Origin: Candidatus Pacearchaeota archaeon
Lineage (GTDB): Archaea; Nanobdellota; Nanobdellia; Pacearchaeales; GW2011-AR1
Assembly (NCBI GenBank): GCA_018304055.1
Contig: JAGVWY010000005.1
Location: forward strand, 1-39,315
Length of the DNA: 39,315 nucleotides
Direction of reading: 5' to 3'
Of the stretch, positions 541 through 38,574 are shown piece after piece; position 1 is the stretch's first letter, and the number at the start of each line of letters is the position of its first letter. The translations under genes were made by a program, and so were the position numbers. Under the pieces are notes generated by a model. It was not told where the DNA came from, did not search any database, and was given only the letters and a program-made list of their open reading frames with translations.

Positions 541-3500
541 ATGAAAAATTATATTAAATGGCATTTCAGTTTATTTATTTTAATTTTATTTAGTTTAAAT
601 TTTGTTAGTGCGAATAATTACACCGTAGATATTTTCTTTACTGTTCCAGATACAGTTTATCAAACAAATGAAAGAATAGAAATAAAAGGTTCTGTTCATT
701 TATCAAATACTTCTGATAATGGAACTTTAATTACTAATATATCGGGTTTTGAGAATGCGCTAGTTAATTTAACCATTAAAAATGTTAATGGAACTTTTCA
801 TAGCAATTACACATTTACAACTTATACTAATGGAACCTTTTATTCTAAAAGCAGCTATTATAATAATGCAACTGAAATAAATGCTTCTAATGTTTCAGGA
901 GATTATTTAATTAGAGCAGAATATAAAGATCCCAATAATAAAATCTGGTATTCAGAGCTTGATATTAGAGTTTTAAATAATACGGTTGATCATCTGTTAG
1001 TAGGCCCTGAAAAAGCAAAATATAATCCATCAGAAACAGTTAAGGTAGTTGTAGTAGCTATGCAATTAATAGAAGGTCGAAATTTATATATTAGTAATGT
1101 TAGTGTTAATGGAACCTTAAGAAATCATACAAAAGGAATTTTAAGTAGTTTCAACTGCACAACAGGAGTATATGGATTTTGTATTGTCAGTTTAACAGCT
1201 CCAAGTGATTATGGTAGATATTTATTAGAGTTAAATAATTTTAAAGCATTTAGCAGTTTTTCAGTTGTTCCTTTTTCAGTTAATGTATACATGAAAGATG
1301 AATTAGGAAAATCAGTAAAAAATGTTTTTGCTAGCGGAGAAAAAGCGCGAGTTGAAGTTAGTATCTTAAATGCAAGTTCTACTGACGAATACACGTTTTC
1401 TGGATATATTAGAGATGCTTCTGGAAATGTTCTAAAAACAATAAATTCAACAACGTTAAATGATAATAATACCTTCATTAATACATTTCAGTTTACTATT
1501 GATAGTTTAACTTTTTCTAGCGGAGCATATTCTGCTTTTGTTACTGTCAATAAAACAGGGGATGGAAGTATTAACTCTTCTACCTCATTTGAAGTTAAAG
1601 ATTGGGTATTAACTATGACAAAAAAATCGTCTGGCTCTGGATTTGAATACGAGCATAGTGTTTTTCCTAATAGAACAGTAAAATTTGATGTTTATCCTAC
1701 TTATCGTTCTAATGGTTCTGTTATCAAAAATTTAAGCTCAAATCTTTTTACTGTTAATTTAAAAGATAATCTTAACAATGTAGTTGTTGTTGGAAATATT
1801 AGTTGGAATGAAAGTTGCGGAAACGAAGGATGTTATGAATTAGCCATGAATTCCACTAATGGAACTGGACAGTTTACTCTCTATGTTACTCTATCTAATG
1901 AAGGACTCACTCAAACAGTAACCAGAATAATAAATGTTATAAATGGAATTCTTTCTGCTCAATCAACTGATAGCGAGGGAAATTTGAAAGAATTGTTTGG
2001 CGCTAATGATTATGTATATTTTTCTTTAACAAGTTATAATACAACTTCAAGCTTTAATTTATCTGATGCAGAGATTTTTTTAGTTAAATATATGAATGGC
2101 AGCGAATATAATTACACAAATGTTAGTTATAATGCTGTTAATTATTCTAATTCTGTTTATGAATGGGGATGGAACGCTACTTTGCAAAGATTAAGATTGG
2201 ATGTGCCTAAAACAGGAGGGGTATATAATGTATTTATTTTTGGTAATAATAGGACTGTTGGAGCAACTTCTCGTTTTATAATAAATCCTTATTCATTGTG
2301 TTCAGTTCCAAAAGATACTCCAGGAAGTGTTTCTTCAACATCTGGAGCTTATTATGTTTGGCAGTTTAAAACAAGTGATACTGTTTATTTTGAATTAAAA
2401 ATAACGCAAGCAGATAATCCTTTAGGAAGAGCAAGTGCATTAAATTCAAGTTCATCGAATGGAACTTCAGGATTAGGAAGTGGATGTTCGATTGATACTT
2501 CAACAAAACAAGTAGTAAGTAATGCTACTATTAGTATTGTAGAAGTTAAACATTTAGAAACAGGAGCCCTTGATAATATTAATGTAAGTGAATCAAAATG
2601 CAAATCTGATGATAGCTCTGGAGGTTACACTTGCACTGTTCAGCCACTGACAAAATGGGCTGGAGGCAATCACATAGTTAAATTTAAAATTGAAGGACAG
2701 GATGGAACTACTGGAATAGGCTATAGTAGATTTGAAGCAAGAGCTTTCTATATGTATGGTTATAGTACAACCTGGCAAAATAGTCCTTCAAGTAATATTT
2801 CTTTAAATGTTCAATTATATGAAGCTGGAAGTGGGTGGTGGGGAAGTAGCAGTGGATTAAGTGGAACTGTTACTGTAAAAAAAGTAGAATATATGGGAAG
2901 AGATGGTGAATGGATATGGCCTCCTGTTGATTCTGGATTAAACGTTTCTAATTTATCAGCTTCAATTACATCTGGCTCTAGTTCAATAACAATTCCTGTA
3001 TCGAGAACAACTACAGGATCATGGAAAACTGGTTATTACAGAGTAGTTATGGAAGGAAAAACAAGTTCAGGAGATACTGATTATGGATATGCTTGGTTTG
3101 GTGTAAAATTATGGGATGTTTATGGAATGCCTGTTGATTGTACTACAAGTAGTTGTAATTATAAGAGCTATTTTAACTCAAAAGAAAATATAACTTTATA
3201 TGTAAAAATATCAAAGGCAGGTAGTTATAGTTACAGTTATAGTGGAGGACAAGATATTTGGGGAAATGTAAGTATTGGAGTTAAAAAAATACAAGATTGC
3301 AGAAAATGGCCATGTTCAGAATATAATGCCAGTAAATATAGCGCAACTATAATTTATGTTAATGAATCAAGTCCATGGTATTGGAACGCTAATACAAATA
3401 ATCAAAGTAAATTCCTTATAGGGATAAATAACACTGAAGGTAGCTGGGGAACAGGATGGTGGAGTGTTGTTTTAAACGTTAATGGAACTGATACAGGATA

Positions 3501-6500
3501 TGCTTGGTTTAATACAATTGCATTTTATGTTGGAATAAGGCCAACAGACATAAATGGCTCAAATTACAAATATAACATTAAACCAGGAGAAAGCAAATAT
3601 TATAATATAACAATAACAAAAAATTATAAAGGATGGGGTGTAAATTATAATGAAAGTGACTATGTAAGTGTTACTTTTGATGATCTTACTTTAAGAGCGT
3701 GGGACGATACAACTTATCAAACAATTGAAAAAAATTATCCTCAAGATTTAAATGTAACTCCTTTAGTAATTAATGGAAGTGTTTTAGTAAATATTAGCTA
3801 CGTTAATGGAAGTTGGCCTACTGGATGGTACTGGGGAGAAATTGTATACAGAAATAACTTAACAAATGAAACTTCTAGTGGATATATTTATTTTGGAGTT
3901 AAACCTTTTAGAGTAAATATAAATAGAAATACAGGTTATGAGATAGATGAATCGCAATGTACGAATGTTACTTTACAAATATATGAACCTGACTGGGGGA
4001 TTAATAGTTATATAGGAGGAAATTATTCAATTAAAACTATTTATGAAAATGTATGGAGTAGTGGATCAAGAAGAAGTATTAATTTAACTAATTATACAAT
4101 TGCAGAAACCTTTAATGCAACAACAAATGTTACTTTATGTCCTAACAATGGAACTTGGGGAAGCGGAAATTGGGGAGGATATCATTACATAAATTTTATA
4201 GTAATTGATAATTCAAATAATAACACAGCTAGTGGAGGAGATGGTTTTAGAGCAATGCCTTTTAGAATACGATGGGGTAGTGTCCAAGGTGTTTCAACTA
4301 AAATAATATCTGAACCTATTTATGTAAATGCGAATGTATCTCAATTTATATCAGGAGCAAGTGCAAACGGAAATTTAAGTTCTGTTTATCAATGGAGATA
4401 TGATAATTCATTTACTGGAAAAGAAACTTATGTATTTAGTGTAGGTAGTTGTTTTTCAAATGTGTCAGGACAATGCAATATAACAGGAGTAAAAAATGTA
4501 ACTATTTATCCTAATTCACGAGGATGGAGAGAAGGATATAATTATTTAACAACAGAATGGAATAAAGTTGATGATTCTTCAAGCAAAATTACTGATTGGA
4601 GCGGCATTTATTTTAATGCTAAACAAGCTTATACAGGAAGTTTTAGTAATACTAATAGGAATGGTAACTGGAAATACAACTTTTATGAAAATGATAGTGT
4701 AACTATAAGAATAACCGTAAGAGATACAAGCAATAATGCTGCAAATGTATCAATAACTTCTGTTTCATACGCTAATACAGGAGGAAATTGTTGGAGTGAA
4801 TGGTGCAAAAGTTATACTACTGCTAATGAATGGTCTTTAACTGATACAAACGCAACAAATGATACAGGAACAAGCGATGGTTCAGCTATTATTTTAATAA
4901 ATAAGCCAACTTCTAATTGGTCTAAAGGAGAATATACAATTAAAGTAGGTATAACAGGAATTAATGGTTCAGCAACAGTTACAGGAGGAAATTTCAGAAT
5001 AATAGATTCAGTTCTTCCAAATATAACAGTTACCTCTCCAACAGTGAATCAAACAATTACAAATAATAGTTTTTCAGTAAGCTGGACAACTACTGAAACT
5101 ACAAGTTGTTACTTATATTTTTGGGACTATAATACTTTTTACAACTATTATTGTGGTGCAGCTAATGCTTCAAATGCTTCTACTGTTGGTTTAACAGAAT
5201 CATGTAATGTAACAAAATATGGATTTAGTAATAATACTCTTTACTATTTTGAATATATAGGTAAAGACTATCAATCAGCTTCGAGTGGTTCTAGTTATGA
5301 CCATTGGTGGCAATCTGGCTCAACTGGATTAAGTACTGATAGCACAAGTCATTCATATTCATTTAATACTTCAAATAAAGTAACAAAAGGATTTTTGAGA
5401 ACACAGAATTATGGTCTTCAATTTTACTGTTATGACAGTGATTATAACTCTGTTAGTGCGTATGTTGCATTAAAAATAGATATAAATTCTAGTAATAATA
5501 TAACAGCTCCAACAATAACTTTAAATTCTCCTACTCATGATCAACATTTTAACACAACATCTGTAACTTTTAATTTTACTTTGGATAAAGCAGGTTATTG
5601 TGAATATTCATTAAATAACGGAACTGCAAATTACACCATGACGAATACAGATACAACTGTCAACTTAAGATTTAATGCCACAAATTCTTCTATTACCGAC
5701 GGAACTTATTTATTATATCCATATTGTAATGATACTTTTGGAAATACAAATTATACTTATAGAACTAACTTTACTATAGATACTATTAATCCTAACATAG
5801 TCTATGGTATTGGTACTGTTAATGATAGTACAAATCTTTCTGGTAATAGTATTTATGTAAATGTAACTGTTAATGATACAACTATAAATAATGTGACATT
5901 TAGATTATTTTATGCTAATGGAACAGCTGTTAATACAACTACTATAACAAGGACAATAACATCTGGATCTATGGGAACAACTGTTTCTGAAGGACTAAAT
6001 TATAAATCTATAAATTGGACTGGATTGGCTGATAATGTTACATATAAATTTAATGTCACTGCAATGGATAAAGCTAATAATAAAAATTCAACTTCAACTA
6101 TAACAACTACTATTAATTTGTCAGATACAACAAATCCTTCGCTAAATTTTACATCAGCTACTTCTAGTGCTGGAAATCAATCTTCAACTTCAATTAATGT
6201 AACTGTAAATGTAACAGAAGTAAATCAACAAGCGGTTGTATTCAGTTTATGGTATACTAATGGGTCATTAGTTAATAGAACTCAATTTAATGATAATAAA
6301 ACTAATTTTAATTGGACTGATTTAAGTGATGAAGATTATCATTTTAATGTAACTGTTAATGATACTGTTGGAAATAAAGGTGCAAGTGAAACTAGGGCAA
6401 TAACTATTGATACTATTAATCCTAACATAGACTATGGTATTGGTACTGTTAATGATAGTACAAATCTTTCTGGTAATAGTATTTATGTAAATGTAACTGT

Positions 6501-7317
6501 TAATGATACTAATCTGAATAATGTGACATTTAGATTATTTTATTCTAATGGAACAATTGTAAATACGACTAATAACCCGATGGCCATAGCGTCAGGAGGA
6601 GCTTTGAATTATCAATTTGTAAACTGGACTGGATTGAGTGATAATGTTACATATAAATTTAATGTTACAGTTAGAGATAGAGCTAATAATAAAAATTCAA
6701 CTTCAACGATTACAACAACAACGAATTTTTCTGATACAATAAATCCTTCGCTAAATTTAACAGTTTTAACTACGAATGCTGGAAATAAATCGACTAGTTT
6801 TATTTCTGTAGAAGTAAATGCAACAGATGACCATGTACAAGCTATTGTATTTGGTTTATGGTATACTAACGGAACATTAGTTAATAGAAGTCAATTTACT
6901 AATAATTGGAGTAATGTAAACTGGACTAATTTAATTGATGAAGACTATCATTTCAATGTTACAGCTAATGATAGTTATGGGAATATAAATACAACTGCAA
7001 CAAGAGCAGTTACTATTGATACTACAAATCCTTCTATAAATTACAGCGAAGGAACAGCAGTAAATTATGCAAATTTAACCCAGAATAATACTTATGTTAA
7101 TGTAAGTGTAACTGAAATTAACTTTTTGAATATTACATTTAGATTATATTATGGAAATCATACTATAGTAAATACTACAGCTTATACTGATAGGATATTT
7201 ACAATTAATTGGACGAATTTATCAATGACTAATTATACTTATAATGTAACTATATATGACGCTGCTGGAAATAAAAATGCAACCTCAAGCAGATATATAA
7301 ATTTATCAGCAGCTTAA
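541..7317 (+). CDS. giant secreted surface glycoprotein with Ig-like repeats
   Basis: A 2258-residue protein with a clear N-terminal signal peptide (lysine-containing start, then a hydrophobic run ending near residue 24). The rest is beta-rich, very high in Asn, Ser and Thr, and carries dozens of N-x-S/T sequons, so it is probably a heavily N-glycosylated exported protein. The middle (about residues 750-1500) contains Trp- and Gly-rich segments of similar design. The last 550 residues are repeats of about 100 residues, each beginning with a D-T-x-N-P-like motif and ending in N-x-T-rich strands, in the manner of bacterial Ig-like adhesin domains. No C-terminal membrane anchor is seen, unlike the two genes that follow 6 and 36 bases downstream in the same direction. 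Adhesion or cell-surface contact is inferred from architecture only. The leader is repeat element A1; no strong Shine-Dalgarno sequence is present. Confidence 0.85.
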   Translation: MKNYIKWHFSLFILILFSLNFVSANNYTVDIFFTVPDTVYQTNERIEIKGSVHLSNTSDNGTLITNISGFENALVNLTIKNVNGTFHSNYTFTTYTNGTFYSKSSYYNNATEINASNVSGDYLIRAEYKDPNNKIWYSELDIRVLNNTVDHLLVGPEKAKYNPSETVKVVVVAMQLIEGRNLYISNVSVNGTLRNHTKGILSSFNCTTGVYGFCIVSLTAPSDYGRYLLELNNFKAFSSFSVVPFSVNVYMKDELGKSVKNVFASGEKARVEVSILNASSTDEYTFSGYIRDASGNVLKTINSTTLNDNNTFINTFQFTIDSLTFSSGAYSAFVTVNKTGDGSINSSTSFEVKDWVLTMTKKSSGSGFEYEHSVFPNRTVKFDVYPTYRSNGSVIKNLSSNLFTVNLKDNLNNVVVVGNISWNESCGNEGCYELAMNSTNGTGQFTLYVTLSNEGLTQTVTRIINVINGILSAQSTDSEGNLKELFGANDYVYFSLTSYNTTSSFNLSDAEIFLVKYMNGSEYNYTNVSYNAVNYSNSVYEWGWNATLQRLRLDVPKTGGVYNVFIFGNNRTVGATSRFIINPYSLCSVPKDTPGSVSSTSGAYYVWQFKTSDTVYFELKITQADNPLGRASALNSSSSNGTSGLGSGCSIDTSTKQVVSNATISIVEVKHLETGALDNINVSESKCKSDDSSGGYTCTVQPLTKWAGGNHIVKFKIEGQDGTTGIGYSRFEARAFYMYGYSTTWQNSPSSNISLNVQLYEAGSGWWGSSSGLSGTVTVKKVEYMGRDGEWIWPPVDSGLNVSNLSASITSGSSSITIPVSRTTTGSWKTGYYRVVMEGKTSSGDTDYGYAWFGVKLWDVYGMPVDCTTSSCNYKSYFNSKENITLYVKISKAGSYSYSYSGGQDIWGNVSIGVKKIQDCRKWPCSEYNASKYSATIIYVNESSPWYWNANTNNQSKFLIGINNTEGSWGTGWWSVVLNVNGTDTGYAWFNTIAFYVGIRPTDINGSNYKYNIKPGESKYYNITITKNYKGWGVNYNESDYVSVTFDDLTLRAWDDTTYQTIEKNYPQDLNVTPLVINGSVLVNISYVNGSWPTGWYWGEIVYRNNLTNETSSGYIYFGVKPFRVNINRNTGYEIDESQCTNVTLQIYEPDWGINSYIGGNYSIKTIYENVWSSGSRRSINLTNYTIAETFNATTNVTLCPNNGTWGSGNWGGYHYINFIVIDNSNNNTASGGDGFRAMPFRIRWGSVQGVSTKIISEPIYVNANVSQFISGASANGNLSSVYQWRYDNSFTGKETYVFSVGSCFSNVSGQCNITGVKNVTIYPNSRGWREGYNYLTTEWNKVDDSSSKITDWSGIYFNAKQAYTGSFSNTNRNGNWKYNFYENDSVTIRITVRDTSNNAANVSITSVSYANTGGNCWSEWCKSYTTANEWSLTDTNATNDTGTSDGSAIILINKPTSNWSKGEYTIKVGITGINGSATVTGGNFRIIDSVLPNITVTSPTVNQTITNNSFSVSWTTTETTSCYLYFWDYNTFYNYYCGAANASNASTVGLTESCNVTKYGFSNNTLYYFEYIGKDYQSASSGSSYDHWWQSGSTGLSTDSTSHSYSFNTSNKVTKGFLRTQNYGLQFYCYDSDYNSVSAYVALKIDINSSNNITAPTITLNSPTHDQHFNTTSVTFNFTLDKAGYCEYSLNNGTANYTMTNTDTTVNLRFNATNSSITDGTYLLYPYCNDTFGNTNYTYRTNFTIDTINPNIVYGIGTVNDSTNLSGNSIYVNVTVNDTTINNVTFRLFYANGTAVNTTTITRTITSGSMGTTVSEGLNYKSINWTGLADNVTYKFNVTAMDKANNKNSTSTITTTINLSDTTNPSLNFTSATSSAGNQSSTSINVTVNVTEVNQQAVVFSLWYTNGSLVNRTQFNDNKTNFNWTDLSDEDYHFNVTVNDTVGNKGASETRAITIDTINPNIDYGIGTVNDSTNLSGNSIYVNVTVNDTNLNNVTFRLFYSNGTIVNTTNNPMAIASGGALNYQFVNWTGLSDNVTYKFNVTVRDRANNKNSTSTITTTTNFSDTINPSLNLTVLTTNAGNKSTSFISVEVNATDDHVQAIVFGLWYTNGTLVNRSQFTNNWSNVNWTNLIDEDYHFNVTANDSYGNINTTATRAVTIDTTNPSINYSEGTAVNYANLTQNNTYVNVSVTEINFLNITFRLYYGNHTIVNTTAYTDRIFTINWTNLSMTNYTYNVTIYDAAGNKNATSSRYINLSAA
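5779..6560 (+). repeat. near-identical internal repeat of the giant surface gene (period 630)
   Basis: About 100 bases from 5779 recur from 6409 with a single mismatch, and weaker similarity continues to about 5930/6560. The offset of exactly 630 bases is 210 codons, two Ig-like units. The near identity at DNA level points to recent duplication or gene conversion within the repeat region. Confidence 0.85.
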
Positions 7318-7323
7318 TGAAAA

Positions 7324-8670
7324 ATGATAAACAAAAAAAAGAAGGAAATAAGTAGAGAAAGCTCTTCTATGAAAATAGTTAGAATTAATTTGTTGATATT
7401 ATTTATAATTTTATTAATTCCTTTTGCAAAATCTGCTGCTGATTTTTCTGTAAATACTTTTTCTTGTACACCCAGTGAAATTGCTATAAATGATGTTTTC
7501 TCATGCACTGCACAAATAAAAAATAACGGGGATGCAGCTGGTTCTGTAAGCACTGCTACATTGTATCCTGATGCAGGTAATTGGCTAGAAGAATCTAGTT
7601 ATGCACAAGCTTCTGGATCAAGTGTGGATCCTGGACAGACAACAGAAGTCACTTTTACGAATTTAAGATCTGTACTATCTGGAAATAATGGATTTTCTAA
7701 AATAATGTTAGATGATGTAACCGATACTTATGTTGCAGACAATAATGTTAAAGAAAACGTTATAGATGTTGTTGTAAGTGTTAATAGTTCTGTAACAAGT
7801 GCAGATGCCAGCGATGATTTTGATGCAACTGCAGAAGTTACTGCTGGAGGAAACATTGACGTTGAATTAACTTTTACTGTGAATTCTGGAGGATGTAGTA
7901 TCGGAAGTCAGCAAAATCCTAAAACAATCTCTGACATGAGTGATGGAAATATTCAATCAAAATCATGGAGTGTTACAATGGGAACAACAGGGAGTTGCTC
8001 TTATAAGGTTACTGCTTCGGCAACAGGAGATGCAGGTGTTGCCTCAAAAGATGATAGTGATAGTGGGACAGTTAGCTGTAATGACTGTTCAAGTAGTAGT
8101 AATACTTCTTCGAGTTCTAGTGGAGGTGGGGGAGGTGGAGGAATTGGAACAACTGTAAAATCCATAGGAGAGCTTCCTGCTAGTTATACTATAGAGCTAT
8201 CAGCAAATGAAAATCTTGCATTTAATTATTCAGGAGAAAGGCATTATGTAAGTGTTACTGATATTAAAGAAACTTCTGCAACAATCGTAATAGAAAGTGA
8301 GCAACAGACTTTTGTCCTATCTATAGGACAGATAATTAACGCTGATTTAAACGGAGATAATTATGCAGAAGTTTCAGTTGAATTAAGATCAATTAACATA
8401 ATAACAAAAAAAGCAAAGGTGGTTATAACAAGATTAACTGAAGGAATAATTGCAGATAAAGGAGAAGAAGATAAGAAATTAGAGGGAGGAATAACTGGAA
8501 GAGCTGTTGATGGAAGTGACAAGGAAATTAGTGAAAAAGAAAAGTCAGAGACTTTAGAAGCTAAAAAAGGATTTTATAAAATCTTGTTAATTATCGTTGG
8601 TATAGTGATTATTTTGATTGTTATAATATTTATTTTAAAGAAATTCTCAAAGAGAAATATTTATAAATAA
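7324..8670 (+). CDS. membrane-anchored surface protein with poly-Gly linker
   Basis: 448 residues. Either the first Met or Met16 (7369) could be the start; both precede a hydrophobic signal segment, and the Met16 start gives a more typical signal peptide. The mature part has two beta-rich, CARDB-like halves with cysteine pairs (about residues 40-250), a Ser-rich stretch running into an eight-glycine linker (about 258-275), then a domain of roughly 110 residues that also occurs at the C-terminus of the 8707 gene. A G-I-T-G-R motif, an acidic/lysine-rich spacer, one long transmembrane helix and a basic tail end the protein. This arrangement suits a wall-anchored protein and could be an archaeosortase substrate (inference; an archaeosortase lies at 19168). 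It starts 6 bases after the 541 gene stops, so co-transcription is likely. Confidence 0.8.
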   Translation: MINKKKKEISRESSSMKIVRINLLILFIILLIPFAKSAADFSVNTFSCTPSEIAINDVFSCTAQIKNNGDAAGSVSTATLYPDAGNWLEESSYAQASGSSVDPGQTTEVTFTNLRSVLSGNNGFSKIMLDDVTDTYVADNNVKENVIDVVVSVNSSVTSADASDDFDATAEVTAGGNIDVELTFTVNSGGCSIGSQQNPKTISDMSDGNIQSKSWSVTMGTTGSCSYKVTASATGDAGVASKDDSDSGTVSCNDCSSSSNTSSSSSGGGGGGGIGTTVKSIGELPASYTIELSANENLAFNYSGERHYVSVTDIKETSATIVIESEQQTFVLSIGQIINADLNGDNYAEVSVELRSINIITKKAKVVITRLTEGIIADKGEEDKKLEGGITGRAVDGSDKEISEKEKSETLEAKKGFYKILLIIVGIVIILIVIIFILKKFSKRNIYK

Positions 8671-8706
8671 TAAAAATTTAATAAGTTATCTAAAAAGGGT
8701 GATAAA

Positions 8707-11700
8707 ATGGATAATAAAGAGAATATTGGTTACATTATTGTTTTCTTAGCCTTGATAATTATTTTATTATCTTATCCTGCGATTGCCTGGACCACAAGCG
8801 TATTAAGCTCAAGTGAAACAGCAGTGGTTAATTATTCTTCTATTTTTGGAGTTGTTAACGAGGATAAAGGACAAATTTATAATATCTCTATTAATCATAC
8901 TTCTGGGACTAATAATGTAACAGAAATTAACATTTCATTATGGGGAAATTTTATTTTTGTTTCTGGCTCAAATCAAACAGCAAATGTAACTGAAGGAAGT
9001 GATGAGCAATTTGCAATTTATTTTTCTAATACAAGTGATACTTTATCATGGAATGCAACTAATAGTACTAGTTATATTTTTCCATTCAACAAGTCGTTAA
9101 ATAGCACTTTTTTCTGGTTTAACGCAACTGTTGCAACACCAGGTAAATATAATATCACTGTAAGAGTTAGATACAATAATACAGTTGTTATAAACGAAAC
9201 TAATATTACTGTTTTAATTAATGATACAACTCTTCCTGATGAAATTAATGTAACATTAACTCCAATGTTTCTGGTTCTTTAACAATTAATGTTTCTGTTG
9301 CAGATAACGGAAATTTCTCTGCAGGAGGTAGAGAAATCACAGGAGTTAATATTTCATTTTTTAATGGAACTGAATATAATACTTCTTATATTGCTTTAAA
9401 TCAAAGTGCATTTTCTTATAGAGGATATTATTGGAATGTTACTGTTGATACTTCTATCATAACTCAAGGAGTTTATAACATTACTATAATAACAAATGAT
9501 TCAAATAATAATTTTAATATCACAAATATCAGCAATATAAGAATTGATAATGTTATTCCTTATGAGGTAAATATAAGTAACTCAAGCCATGTTTCTAGAG
9601 GAAATTACTCTGGAATTATTATATTTAATGCTTCTGTATTAGATGCTATTGCTGGAGTTAATACAGTAGTATTTAATATTACAAATGCTTCAGCAGAACA
9701 GAATATTACTCATATGTATTATACTGCTGCTCGTTCAGGGGATTATTTTAATTCGACTGTTAACACAAGTCTATTTGCTGATGGAGTTTATAATTTAACA
9801 ATTTATGCTAATGATAGTGCAGGGAATTTGAATGCTACAATTTCATGGTATAATATTACTTTTGATAATACAAAGCCGAATAATGTTAGTAATGCAAATG
9901 CTAGTCAAATTGATAATAGTAATTATACTGGAATATTTATTTTTAATGTAAGTGCTGTTGATGCAACTGCATTAGTAGCTACAGTTATTTTTAATGTAAC
10001 TTATGTTAATGGAACGCAGAATGCAAGTTATACTGCCCAAAGATCTGGAGATTATTTTAATATAACTATTAATACTTCACAATTTCCTGAAGGAAGATTT
10101 AATATTTCAGTTATTGTTAATGATAGTGCAAATAATTTGAATAATACTCTCTATATTGGTAATCTTACTTTTGATAATATTGTTCCTAATAATTTAAGTA
10201 ATGCAAATACAAGCATTCTATCAGGAGGGAATTATTCTGGAAGTTTTGTGTTTAATGTTAGTGCATTAGATGCAACTGTTGGAATGCAGACAGTTATTTT
10301 TAATGTGACTTATGTTAATGGAACACAAGCTCAAAATGGAAGTGCTACGACAACAAGATCAGGAGATTATTTCACGGCAACTATTAATACAAGTTTATTT
10401 TTAGAAGGAAGATATAATATTAGTATTATTGCAAATGACAGCTTAAATAATTTGAATACAACCTTGCTTATACTTAATTTAACGTTTGATAATACAGTAC
10501 CTAATAATGTAAGTAATGCTAATGCGAGTCATGTTGCTACAGGAAATTATTCAGGAACATTTGTATTTAATGTTAGTGCTTTGGATACTATAGCTGGCGT
10601 AAATACAGTAATTGTTAATATTACAAATTCTACAAGTAGCCAGAATGCAAGTTATACAGCAGCTAGATCAGGAGATTACTTTAATGTGACTATTGTTACA
10701 ACTCAATTTCCAGATGGAAGATATAATATCAGTGTATTGGCTAATGATAGTGCAGGAAATTTAAATAATACATTTTATTTAGGAAATATTACTTTTGATA
10801 ATACAAAGCCAAATAATGTTAGTAATGCAAATACAAGTATAATTTCAACTGGAAATTACTCAGGAACATTTGTATTTAATGTTAGTGCATTAGATGCTAC
10901 TGCTGGAATGGGGAATGTAATTGTTAATTTGACTAATTCATCTGGAGGACAAAACGCATCATATACCGCCGCACGTTCTGGAGATTATTTTAATGCAACA
11001 ATAAACACAAGTAATTTCCCTGATGGAAGATATAATATCAGTGTATTGGCTAATGATAGTGCAGGAAATTTAAATAATACATTTTATTTAGGAAATATTA
11101 CTTTTGATAATACAAGGCCTAATGAAGTTAATTTTACAAATTCTAGCTTTATTTCATTTGCAAATTTTTCAGGAGTTATTTTTATTAATGTTTCAGCTTT
11201 AGATGCTACTGCAGGAATTAATACAGTTTATGTAAATATAACAAATGCTACGGCTGTAGTGCAAAATGCAACTTATACAGCATCAAAAGTAGGAAATATA
11301 TTCAATGTAACTGTAAACACAAGCCACTTTGTTGATGGAAGATATAATATAACTGTTTGGTGCTCTGACGCAACTACTTCAGATGCTTTCCCTTGTTCAT
11401 GCACAAGAGAAGATAATGTATCAGGAATACAGTCAACATCAGAATCTTCTGACTCTCCTGATAATCTTGCAAGACCAAGCACTACTGGATCTTTTATTTA
11501 TACCTGTACTGTTACGAATCATGCTGGAATAAGCACAACAAGAACAGCAGGTTATAGAATAACTCAAGGCGGATCGTCTGTTGGTGGTGGCGGAGGAGGT
11601 GGAGGAACATCCTCTACATCAGATTATAAAAGAACAATTACTGTAAGTGAAAAACTTAATAAAGAAGGAATATCTGTTAACAAACAATTAGCTGAAAAAG

Positions 11701-12161
11701 AAAGAATAAAAATAGAAGTAGTTGAAAGTAGTAGTGTTAGTGGAGGAGGAGGAGGAGGAACATCTACACACTATGTAGGAATTAAAGATATTAAAAATAA
11801 TTCAGTAGTAATTGAAATAACAAGTAATCCTATAATTGTTGAATTGTTTGTTGGAGAAGAAAAGAAAGTAGATCTTAATAATGATGATATTTATGATATT
11901 AAAGTAAAACTTAATAGTATTATAAATAATAATAAAGCTGATTTAAAAGTTGAATATATAAGAGAAGCTCTTCCTCAAGAAGTGACTCCTCCAGTAGAAG
12001 AAAGTATTGAAGAGGAAGAACCTGTTGTGGAACAAGAGGAAGAAGAGATTAGCGTTAAAAAAAGTTATGGATGGTTATGGACACTACTAGCTGTAATAAT
12101 AATTATAATCATTATAATAGTTTTGATTATGACAAGGGCGCCAAAGAAAAGGTTTTATTAG
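8707..12161 (+). pseudogene. repeat-rich surface glycoprotein, split by one frameshift
   Basis: The ORF track shows two pieces (8707-9282 and 9714-12161), but they belong to one gene of about 1150 codons. The frame that reaches 9714 is open back to 9264. The first piece reads through to Thr-Pro at 9259-9264 and then stops, while the other frame continues with the same N-x-T-rich protein from 9264. A single missing base in the CCAAT at 9262-9266 explains the break. The product has a signal or anchor helix near residues 8-28, six repeats of about 103 residues, a Cys-rich segment, a glycine-run linker, the C-terminal domain shared with the 7324 gene, an acidic stretch, one transmembrane helix and a basic tail. 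The start has a GGGTGAT Shine-Dalgarno sequence 5 bases upstream. It could be a real disruption, a phase-variable gene or a sequencing error; the site is not a long homopolymer. Confidence 0.8.
9546..11400 (+). repeat. six tandem repeats of about 309 bases coding Ig-like units
   Basis: Each unit begins with D-N-x-x-P-N and contains a G-N-Y-S-G-like motif followed by F-N-V-S-A-x-D-A and, later, a D-G-R-Y-N-I-S strand. Unit starts fall near 9546, 9870, 10170, 10485, 10795 and 11105. About 100 bases at 10713 recur at 11022 with about two mismatches, so neighbouring units are being homogenised. Confidence 0.85.
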
Positions 12162-25065: not shown

Positions 25066-25284
25066 TTATTGATTTTTTAAAAAATAAATATGGCTAGTAA
25101 ACTTTTTGTTGCATTTCTTGCATTGCCAAATTCCTTTTGAAATCCTCTTTGCAGTTCCATTGCAGAAGATACATTTTTGGTCTTTTCTTTGCAAAGACTC
25201 TATCTCTGCAATTTTAGTTCTTACTCTTCTTCCATATCTAGGTCCAAACCTTCCTGCTGATTTTACTTTTTTAGTTTTTGGCAT
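25066..25284 (-). CDS. rpl37ae: ribosomal protein L37Ae
   Basis: 72 residues from M-P-K-T-K-K; the track start at 25377 runs back into the tRNA and is rejected. G-R-F-G-P-R-Y-G-R-R is the family's N-terminal motif, and C-I-F-C with C-K-K-C makes the zinc ribbon. A TATA-like TTTAAAAATA at about 25302-25312 fits a leaderless start. It opens the L37Ae-rpoP-prefoldin cluster. Confidence 0.9.
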   Translation of the reverse strand: MPKTKKVKSAGRFGPRYGRRVRTKIAEIESLQRKDQKCIFCNGTAKRISKGIWQCKKCNKKFTSHIYFLKNQ

Positions 25285-25337
25285 TTTTATGTATAGTGAG
25301 TTTATTTTTAAAGGTTTTGATTGAAGCGAACTTGTGA

Positions 25338-25410
25338 TGGGGATGCTGAGATTTGAACTCAGATCGCAAGCTCCCAAAGCTCGAAGGCTACCAGGTTACC
25401 CCACATCCCC
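25338..25410 (-). tRNA. tRNA-Pro (anticodon TGG)
   Basis: Acceptor GGGGATG pairs with CATCCCC, discriminator A. The D-arm is GGGTAACCTGGTAGCC-like. The anticodon stem CGAGC/GCTTG holds loop TTTGGGA, giving anticodon TGG, and the T-arm is CTGAG-TTCAAAT-CTCAG. It is 73 bases with no intron and no encoded CCA. A TATA box (ATTTATAAATC, about 25436-25446) lies about 30 bases upstream. Confidence 0.93.
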
Positions 25411-37071: not shown

Positions 37072-37572
37072 ATGAGTGATAATCTTTCAGAATCTTTAGA
37101 TAGTACTGTTGAAAATATTCCGGTTTATTATACAACAGGACAAGCAGCTAAATATTTATCTTTATCCGCTCATAAAATAACTGAATTATTCGAAAATGGT
37201 TACTTAGAAGGATTTTGCATCCCGAGAGGAGGACATAGAAGAATTTCTTATAAATCTTTAAAAGAATTAAAAGAAAAAATGAAAAGAGATTCTGGAGAAG
37301 ATAATACAGATAAGTTTAGTTCAGACACTTATACAACTGGAGAAGTTTCAAGAATTTGTAATTTATCTCCACAAACTATTACAAGGTATTTTAACGGGGG
37401 TACATTGAGAGGCTATCGTGTCCCTGATTCATCTCATAGAAGAATTCCTCATAAAAATTTAGTTGATTTTATGATAGAATACGGCATACCTCAAGATAGA
37501 TTGAGAATATTTCTCGAGAAAAAGAAATCGCGAATATCTAAAAAACAACAACCAGAAAACAGGAGAGATTAG
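37072..37572 (+). CDS. tandem MerR/excisionase-type helix-turn-helix protein
   Basis: 166 residues with two copies of one DNA-binding domain, at about 18-70 and 85-150. Each opens with Y-T-T-G-(Q/E)-(A/V)-(A/S)-(K/R), contains a recognition helix, and ends with a wing G-x-x-(I/V)-P-x-x-x-H-R-R-I. The second copy continues with F-M-I-E-Y-G-I-P as in the HTH tails fused to some response regulators. Two domains in one chain suggest recognition of a two-part operator. A TATA-like GTTTAAATAA lies about 30 bases upstream. Targets unknown. Confidence 0.8.
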   Translation: MSDNLSESLDSTVENIPVYYTTGQAAKYLSLSAHKITELFENGYLEGFCIPRGGHRRISYKSLKELKEKMKRDSGEDNTDKFSSDTYTTGEVSRICNLSPQTITRYFNGGTLRGYRVPDSSHRRIPHKNLVDFMIEYGIPQDRLRIFLEKKKSRISKKQQPENRRD

Positions 37573-37651
37573 TTGTTTAACTATATCTAAAAAATTACAA
37601 TCCTAAAAATACAATACAAATATTTTAATAGCTGATAATACAGAGGATTGT

Positions 37652-37900
37652 ATGGAAGATGATAATATTCAGAGATATAGGTCAATAGATAGAATTTATA
37701 CAACTGGGGAAATAGCTAGAATATGGGAAGTTTCTATAAAATCAGTTATAAAATGTATTGATAGCGGACATTTAAAAGCAGTTAGGTTTACGACCAAAGG
37801 TTTTAGAAGGGTATCAAACTCTGACCTTGTTGATTGTATGGTTAACCACAATATTCCATTGAATGGGTTAGACCGCTATGTGCGGGAAAGAGAAGATTAA
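37652..37900 (+). CDS. single-domain MerR/excisionase-type helix-turn-helix protein
   Basis: 82 residues, closest to the second domain of the 37072 product: Y-T-T-G-E-I-A-R-I-W, wing F-R-R-V, then C-M-V-N-H-N-I-P-L. The wing lacks the His of the H-R-R motif. It is 79 bases after the first gene, on the same strand, and 53 bases before aIF5A. This is a local paralogue, probably from tandem duplication. Confidence 0.75.
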   Translation: MEDDNIQRYRSIDRIYTTGEIARIWEVSIKSVIKCIDSGHLKAVRFTTKGFRRVSNSDLVDCMVNHNIPLNGLDRYVRERED

Positions 37901-37953: not shown

Positions 37954-38343
37954 ATGGCTTTTAAATTAATTAATGCTGCTGAATCTCGACCAGGAACTAC
38001 TATTTCAGTTGATGGAACTGCTTGCGTAGTAAAAAACAATGATATTAGCAAAACAGGAAAACACGGACATGCAAAATGCAGGATTGAGGCTGTTAGTATT
38101 ATTGATGGCAAGAAAAAAGTTTTTGTTGTTGGAGGTCATGAGAGATTAGAGGTTCCTATGATAGAAAAAAATAAAGCTCAAGTTTTAACTATAACAGAAG
38201 ATAAAGCTAATATCATGGATTTAGAAAATTTTGAAACATTTGAAATACCTATACATGAAGATGTAAAAGGACAAATAGCTGAAGGGGATCAAGTTGAATA
38301 TTGGAATATTGAAGGGATTAAAATAATTAAGAGGAAAATGTAA
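37954..38343 (+). CDS. eif5a: translation factor aIF5A
   Basis: 129 residues, the usual archaeal length. The N-terminal SH3-like domain carries the hypusination loop K-T-G-K-H-G-H-A-K, whose Lys between Gly and His is the modified one; the C-terminal OB domain follows. It helps ribosomes through polyproline and other stall sequences and at termination. A TATA box (CTTTATAAAT, about 37910-37919) predicts a short leader of about 12 bases. Confidence 0.95.
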   Translation: MAFKLINAAESRPGTTISVDGTACVVKNNDISKTGKHGHAKCRIEAVSIIDGKKKVFVVGGHERLEVPMIEKNKAQVLTITEDKANIMDLENFETFEIPIHEDVKGQIAEGDQVEYWNIEGIKIIKRKM

Positions 38344-38347
38344 ATGG

Positions 38348-38409
38348 CAAAATCATCTTTGATGATTTTGAATATTTTAACTCCCAGAAATGGGAGAAGG
38401 AGTTAAATC
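38348..38409 (+). promoter_or_regulatory. structured spacer controlling the L40e start
   Basis: The 66-base space between aIF5A and L40e has a perfect 10-bp hairpin (38348-38357 with 38361-38370, loop TTT). After it comes a 9-bp stem, TTTAACTCC (38376-38384) with GGAGTTAAA (38399-38407), that takes in the Shine-Dalgarno GGAG 8 bases before ATG. CTCCC (38381-38385) can instead pair with GGGAG (38392-38396), freeing the Shine-Dalgarno. The two pairings exclude each other, as in a translational switch. Confidence 0.55.
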
Positions 38410-38574
38410 ATGGCAACAAAAATTCCGGCTGCACAAGCAAGACTTTTTAAAAATATTTTTGTATGTAAAAATTGTAAAGCAAAAATTAGATCTGATCCGA
38501 GAAAAATTATAGAGGGAAAAGTTAGATGCAGAAAGTGTTTAAAAAAAGCGTTCAGGCCTGTTAGGAAGAAATAG
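38410..38574 (+). CDS. rpl40e: ribosomal protein L40e
   Basis: 54 residues, too short for the ORF track. R-L-F-K-N-I-F-V-C-K-N-C-K-A-K and V-R-C-R-K-C-L-K-K give the two zinc-binding Cys pairs, with the R-x-D-P-R-K link of L40e. Follows aIF5A by 66 bases on the same strand and is probably co-transcribed with it. Confidence 0.92.
   Translation: MATKIPAAQARLFKNIFVCKNCKAKIRSDPRKIIEGKVRCRKCLKKAFRPVRKK

Follow-up and report, generated by a model that had tools for sequence, protein, structure and literature searches.

A 20-codon open reading frame between the aIF5A and L40e genes as a candidate translational relay in Pacearchaeota

The stretch of DNA analysed here, referred to as the window, is 39,315 nt long and represents contig C15 of a 1.23-Mb genome bin with a completeness of 92%. 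Its closest relatives by aIF5A are Pacearchaeota/Nanoarchaeota bins, and all compared genomes have at most 74% aIF5A identity to it. The aIF5A gene is followed on the same strand by the gene of ribosomal protein L40e (eL40), with a spacer of 66 nt, and two small helix-turn-helix proteins (HTH_17/MerR-like, 37072-37900) lie immediately 5' of aIF5A. Elsewhere in the window, a row of very large Asn/Thr/Ser-rich surface-type proteins (2258, 448, 191 and 815 aa) occupies 541-12161, and a zinc-ribbon ORF resembling ribosomal L37Ae is found on the minus strand at 25066-25410, just 3' of tRNA-Pro(TGG); its start is probably near 25284, since the longest reading overruns into that tRNA. The features of the aIF5A-L40e locus are as follows.

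37954..38343, plus strand: aIF5A gene, the upstream partner, 129 codons (NCBIfam eIF_5A, E 5.8e-29; Pfam IF5A-like_N and eIF-5a); stop TAA at 38341-38343
38330..38335, plus strand: AGAGGA, Shine-Dalgarno (SD)-like, in the last aIF5A codons; its GAGG is 9 nt before the ATG of the relay ORF
38344..38406, plus strand: ORF of 20 codons encoding MAKSSLMILNILTPRNGRRS, here called the relay ORF, which fills the spacer; stop TAA at 38404-38406
38348..38370, plus strand: perfect 10-bp hairpin CAAAATCATC-TTT-GATGATTTTG with a TTT loop, inside the relay ORF, beginning 4 nt past the aIF5A stop
38376..38407, plus strand: perfect 9-bp stem, TTTAACTCC (38376-38384) with GGAGTTAAA (38399-38407), loop of 14 nt, pairing the L40e SD
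38381..38396, plus strand: rival hairpin CTCCCA-GAAA-TGGGAG with a GAAA loop, 6 bp counting the A-T pair
38399..38402, plus strand: GGAG, the L40e SD, 7 nt 5' of the ATG at 38410, in the last codons of the relay ORF
38410..38574, plus strand: L40e gene, 54 codons (profile and NF003161 matches)

Single-sequence searches with the L40e of the window gave weak matches, and PF01020 did not match L40e. The L40e profile of 18 relatives matches the archaeal eL40 chains 9sra (E 1.5e-5) and 4v6u (E 1.6e-5), and NF003161 L40e was found in all 18 profile members. Moreover, the cysteines by which archaeal eL40 was judged (C19, C22, C40 and C43) are invariant.

A strong archaeal promoter was predicted upstream of aIF5A (10.9 bits, promoter model). 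No site was found before L40e by the promoter matrix, including positions overlapping the spacer (-4.1 bits), and this score is the lowest among the 16 close loci listed. The relay ORF directly abuts the aIF5A stop (0 nt) and ends 3 nt before the L40e ATG, so that both of its junctions lie within the distance used for TeRe gene pairs, while the 66 nt from aIF5A directly to L40e would be too long a gap. Reinitiation in Haloferax volcanii is reduced by 60% when the distance is 13 nt and is lost at 22 nt; in E. coli it needs no more than the final 15 nt of the upstream gene (PMC10666635). By this published distance rule, coupling should fail over 66 nt and work over 0 and 3 nt. The 16S of five genomes of the same genus ends with the anti-SD GGATCACCTCCT, which makes SD pairing possible in the genus; the 16S of the window genome itself is incomplete.

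The sequence itself shows the ORF with its two short junctions and two SD motifs, the lack of a promoter match and the recurrence in relatives described below. We propose with moderate confidence, on sequence grounds, that the spacer is a translational relay working by termination-reinitiation. aIF5A and L40e would probably share one transcript, and a ribosome ending aIF5A at TAA 38341-38343 would restart at the abutting ATG 38344, aided by AGAGGA. Translation of the 20 relay codons would open all the hairpins of the spacer, and the ribosome, after stopping at TAA 38404-38406, would reinitiate 3 nt further on at L40e with the aid of GGAG. The hairpins, chiefly the 9-bp stem that pairs the SD, may restrict direct ribosome entry at L40e, which would then depend on the relay. 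The initial annotation had suggested that ribosomes finishing aIF5A feed L40e; this idea survives in altered form, with the 20-codon ORF, which had been overlooked, as the probable path. The short relay peptides have no convincing match in Pfam and are mostly unrelated to one another, and the peptide itself is probably unimportant.

We then turn to the relatives, where the order aIF5A then L40e is widely kept (66 loci in a first set, and 98 in a second set drawn from further genomes of the same family). The spacer between them varies from -1 to more than 400 nt, and in the loci L151/L006 (G001) the two same-strand genes are separated by about 2 kb. A spacer was regarded as bridged if an ATG at most 6 nt from the aIF5A stop opens an ORF of at least 8 codons whose stop is at most 10 nt from the L40e start. 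As a result, 7 of the 33 first-set spacers of 36-400 nt were bridged, with 0.2 expected and none of 1000 shuffles reaching 7; an ATG near the aIF5A stop occurs in 8 first-set spacers, and 7 of these 8 stay open to L40e. This rule was fixed after three of the cases were known, which we count against the relay, and it was therefore tested, unchanged, in the second set of separately fetched family genomes. There, 3 of 35 spacers were bridged, with 0.17 expected and no such count in 1000 shuffles, and the reverse-complement control gave 0 and 0 in the two sets. In the genome of the window itself, bridging of same-strand spacers of 36-150 nt is mildly above chance, with 7 cases including the window and 2.2 expected; the other six are L057, L059, L069, L081, L084 and L096, some of which may be unannotated small genes.

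The promoter and SD motifs of L40e were also compared by spacer class. Median promoter scores before L40e are 0.8 bits for tight, 7.6 for long unbridged and 1.95 for bridged spacers, the bridged ones being lower than the long ones (p=0.005). An L40e SD was found in 5/8 bridged, 11/23 tight and 1/27 long unbridged loci of the first set (bridged vs long, p=0.0009) and in 3/3, 31/48 and 3/40 of the second (p=0.002). An SD motif in the last 20 nt of aIF5A, which can serve the relay start alone in bridged loci, is present in 6/8 bridged, 15/23 tight and 7/27 long unbridged loci of the first set (bridged vs long, p=0.03), and the corresponding values in the second set are 3/3, 31/48 and 12/40 (p=0.04). 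In the window genome (the window and L048-L107), genes with their own promoter have BRE/TATA about 36-20 nt 5' of the ATG and an SD in 10.5% of cases, compared with 39% among genes at most 15 nt from the upstream partner. Own-promoter genes of this genome are thus likely to be mostly leaderless, with SD motifs mainly in operon-internal genes. The L40e loci follow the same split, and long unbridged spacers are usually promoter-led and SD-free. A sigma-70 scan was set aside as irrelevant to archaea, and a literature search on L40e with aIF5A, on leaderless genes in Pacearchaeota and on leaderless or SD-led genes in DPANN returned nothing usable.

The spacer of the window also has marked folding potential. 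When the 66-nt spacer undergoes dinucleotide shuffling, a perfect stem of 10 bp or longer arises in 0.45% of cases; one of 9 bp or longer arises in 0.2% when the remaining 39 nt are shuffled. A 111-nt piece folds with a z of -2.66, and the spacer by itself with a z of about -3.7 to -4.1; by this measure it takes 4th place among 197 same-strand spacers with lengths of 40-150 nt within 0.82 Mb of its own genome. The 10-bp hairpin noted in the initial annotation just past the aIF5A stop is indeed present at 38348-38370, and the placement of GGAG within a perfect 9-bp stem can be read directly from the sequence. As also proposed there, a competing CTCCC/GGGAG hairpin exists and excludes the 9-bp stem, since CTCC is common to both; it does not fully free GGAG, which can re-pair with UUUU in the rival fold. 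At equilibrium in a wider context, the rival hairpin dominates at 37 C (P 0.998; 9-bp stem, 0.004). GGAG is unpaired in 24% of the local ensemble at 37 C and in 2% at 15 C. Strong folding (z -6.0 to -2.7) is likewise seen in the spacers of L015, L126, L008 and L005, which have no bridging ORF and whose structures are unrelated; a z below -2 occurs in 9 of 33 first-set spacers, compared with 10% of own-genome spacers.

The only spacer clearly homologous to that of the window is that of L011 (alignment z 5.15, 0/500 shuffles), and the homology of the L013 spacer is weaker (p=0.006). L011 is the sister species of L010 (G005), in which a 155-codon ORF with no significant Pfam match stands between aIF5A and L40e, 1 nt from each; L011 has a 19-codon relay in its place. 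All 8 aligned pairs of the 9-bp stem are retained in L011, with both sides altered in three (C-G to A-T, T-A and T-A). The probability of such conservation is about 0.0003 under independent change and 0.013-0.024 conditional on three C-G pairs changed on both sides, both values being rough because the substitutions behind them were counted over a few dozen columns. L011 retains 1 of 6 pairs of the rival hairpin and 3 of 8 aligned pairs of the 10-bp hairpin. This comparison lends modest backing, from one relative, to the predicted 9-bp stem pairing the SD, and none to a switch.

It had been proposed that the exclusive pairings form a two-state device, possibly set by L40e itself. A riboswitch-like arrangement of this kind, in which L40e protein or another ligand decides whether the L40e SD is hidden or free, would fit the presence of both pairings beyond chance and the three compensatory changes by which L011 keeps the 9-bp stem. 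Against it stand the loss of the rival hairpin in the same relative and a hidden state with a share of 0.4% in the ensemble at 37 C. Neither pairing is present in most relatives, so that by the refutation criterion given in the initial annotation the switch does not stand as a feature of the family, and the 71 of 164 spacers that are at most 13 nt long leave no room for the pairings, which also argues against a conserved switch. The Rfam scan of the spacer returned weak chance-level matches, none above the gathering score; in a search for an autogenous r-protein leader, the other spacers had no shared structure, with one partial case in L011, and nothing was found in support of control by L40e. 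Across 32 long spacers, accessibility of the L40e start was not below that of shuffles (mean rank 0.62), which counts against the relay as well. Switching between the two pairings is thus weakly supported, and we consider a riboswitch-like device quite improbable.

Three other explanations deserve weighing. The spacer could be an ordinary decaying one, with L40e started independently from its own SD on a joint transcript and with ORF and hairpins accidental; low GC makes stems and ORFs easy to obtain, the codon-position pattern shows no conservation of the peptide, and bridging in the window's own genome is only mildly above chance (7 vs 2.2). However, bridging recurs at aIF5A-L40e and was replicated in the second set, SD motifs partition by spacer class and the spacer of the window folds strongly, so we judge this explanation unlikely. 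The probability is smaller still that the 20-codon ORF represents a genuine microprotein gene which stands between aIF5A and L40e by chance. ORFs of 55-155 codons do occupy the same position in other loci, and the alignment of the window and L011 peptides beats shuffles (p=0.0005), but the short ORFs are mostly unrelated among themselves, have no Pfam match and, between the window and L011, differ with no excess at third positions. Finally, the 10-bp hairpin with its T-rich tail may represent an aIF5A terminator or 3'-end processing site, L40e having its own promoter. A terminator-like scan match does cover 38348-38370 (1 found vs 0.5 expected); however, the promoter match before L40e is absent (-4.1 bits), and L40e has an SD, unlike the promoter-led L40e genes of relatives, which makes this the least credible of the readings.

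The relay by termination-reinitiation also has points against it beyond those already named. Coupling is reportedly weakened by a hairpin just past the stop codon (PMC12548453). By a by-eye count, the relay ORFs of the window and L011 differ at codon positions 1/2/3 by 6/10/8, a split with no sign of protein-level selection, and since the two have a single shared origin they amount to one event. In five loci the bridging ORFs have 55-155 codons and may simply be genes, and a short ORF is found in only one of the three second-set bridged cases (13 codons, L166). In L013 and L110, SD motifs are absent at both junctions.

As for the origin of the relay, the relay ORFs of L011 and L026 start like L40e, with 11 of 15 nt after the ATG identical, a match equalled by 0.1% and 0% of 888 own-genome genes, respectively; this points to a truncated copy of the beginning of L40e. 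The start in the window is less L40e-like (8 of 15 nt, equalled by 11% of genes), and its origin is deduced through the spacer homology with L011. The L026 relay ORF, MAKIPELKYRDFKCVILGAVYG, opens like its L40e (MAKIPEAQNR) but differs from it at several synonymous sites, as if left by an old partial duplication, and in L018 a second ATGGCAACAAAA (the L40e start) 27 nt past the aIF5A stop opens a 9-codon ORF. The spacer of the window does not behave as a repeat, its one full-length match in its own genome being itself. We tentatively suggest, at somewhat less than even probability, that in this Pacearchaeota family selection maintains an unbroken translation chain across the gap whenever an aIF5A-L40e pair became separated and gained no new promoter, some of the bridges being a truncated copy of the L40e start. 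The old L40e start would have turned into the relay start, and a new L40e copy would be fed from the relay stop.

If the relay reading is right, archaea with mostly leaderless genes rebuild translational coupling as an operon spacer grows, using ORFs so short that the length cut-offs of gene callers would miss them. It would give a testable rule for operon spacers, namely a tight junction, an own promoter or a relay ORF, and would explain how a translation factor remains in step with a ribosomal protein when no regulatory RNA is conserved. It would also extend to archaea a design known from mgtQ and synthetic bicistronic leaders.

Several known systems resemble the arrangement in the window. 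In the E. coli infC-rpmI-rplT operon, reportedly described by Lesage in 1992, a translation-factor gene stands beside a ribosomal protein gene, and mRNA structure and translational coupling are involved. Unlike the locus in the window, that operon is bacterial, with long-range pairing, L20 as repressor and no relay ORF. The 8-codon mgtQ of Salmonella, between mgtC and mgtB, is likewise a short ORF between operon genes, and its translation frees the downstream ribosome site (PMC8092293). In both cases exclusive stem-loops overlap the ORF and one of them masks the next SD, although in the window they are predicted and the masking state is minor at equilibrium. mgtQ relies on ribosome-destabilising Asp/Glu codons and answers low Mg2+, whereas the window peptide has no D/E; reinitiation is a simpler reading than the mgtQ mode, since both ends of the window ORF are at most 3 nt from their neighbours. 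The mgtQ layout indicates that the pairings of the initial annotation and the relay can be one device. TeRe pairs of archaea and bacteria (PMC6728339, PMC10666635) share with the window the very short stop-to-start distances, the downstream SD and the co-directed genes, but the window chains two junctions through a 20-codon frame where its relatives have one. The MIRU elements of mycobacteria, as described in PMC12548453, are mobile repeats with a spacing of -4 nt, in contrast to the single-copy spacer of the window with its junctions of 0 and +3 nt. The components are thus known elsewhere, in TeRe, mgtQ and MIRU, and their combination in archaea looks new.
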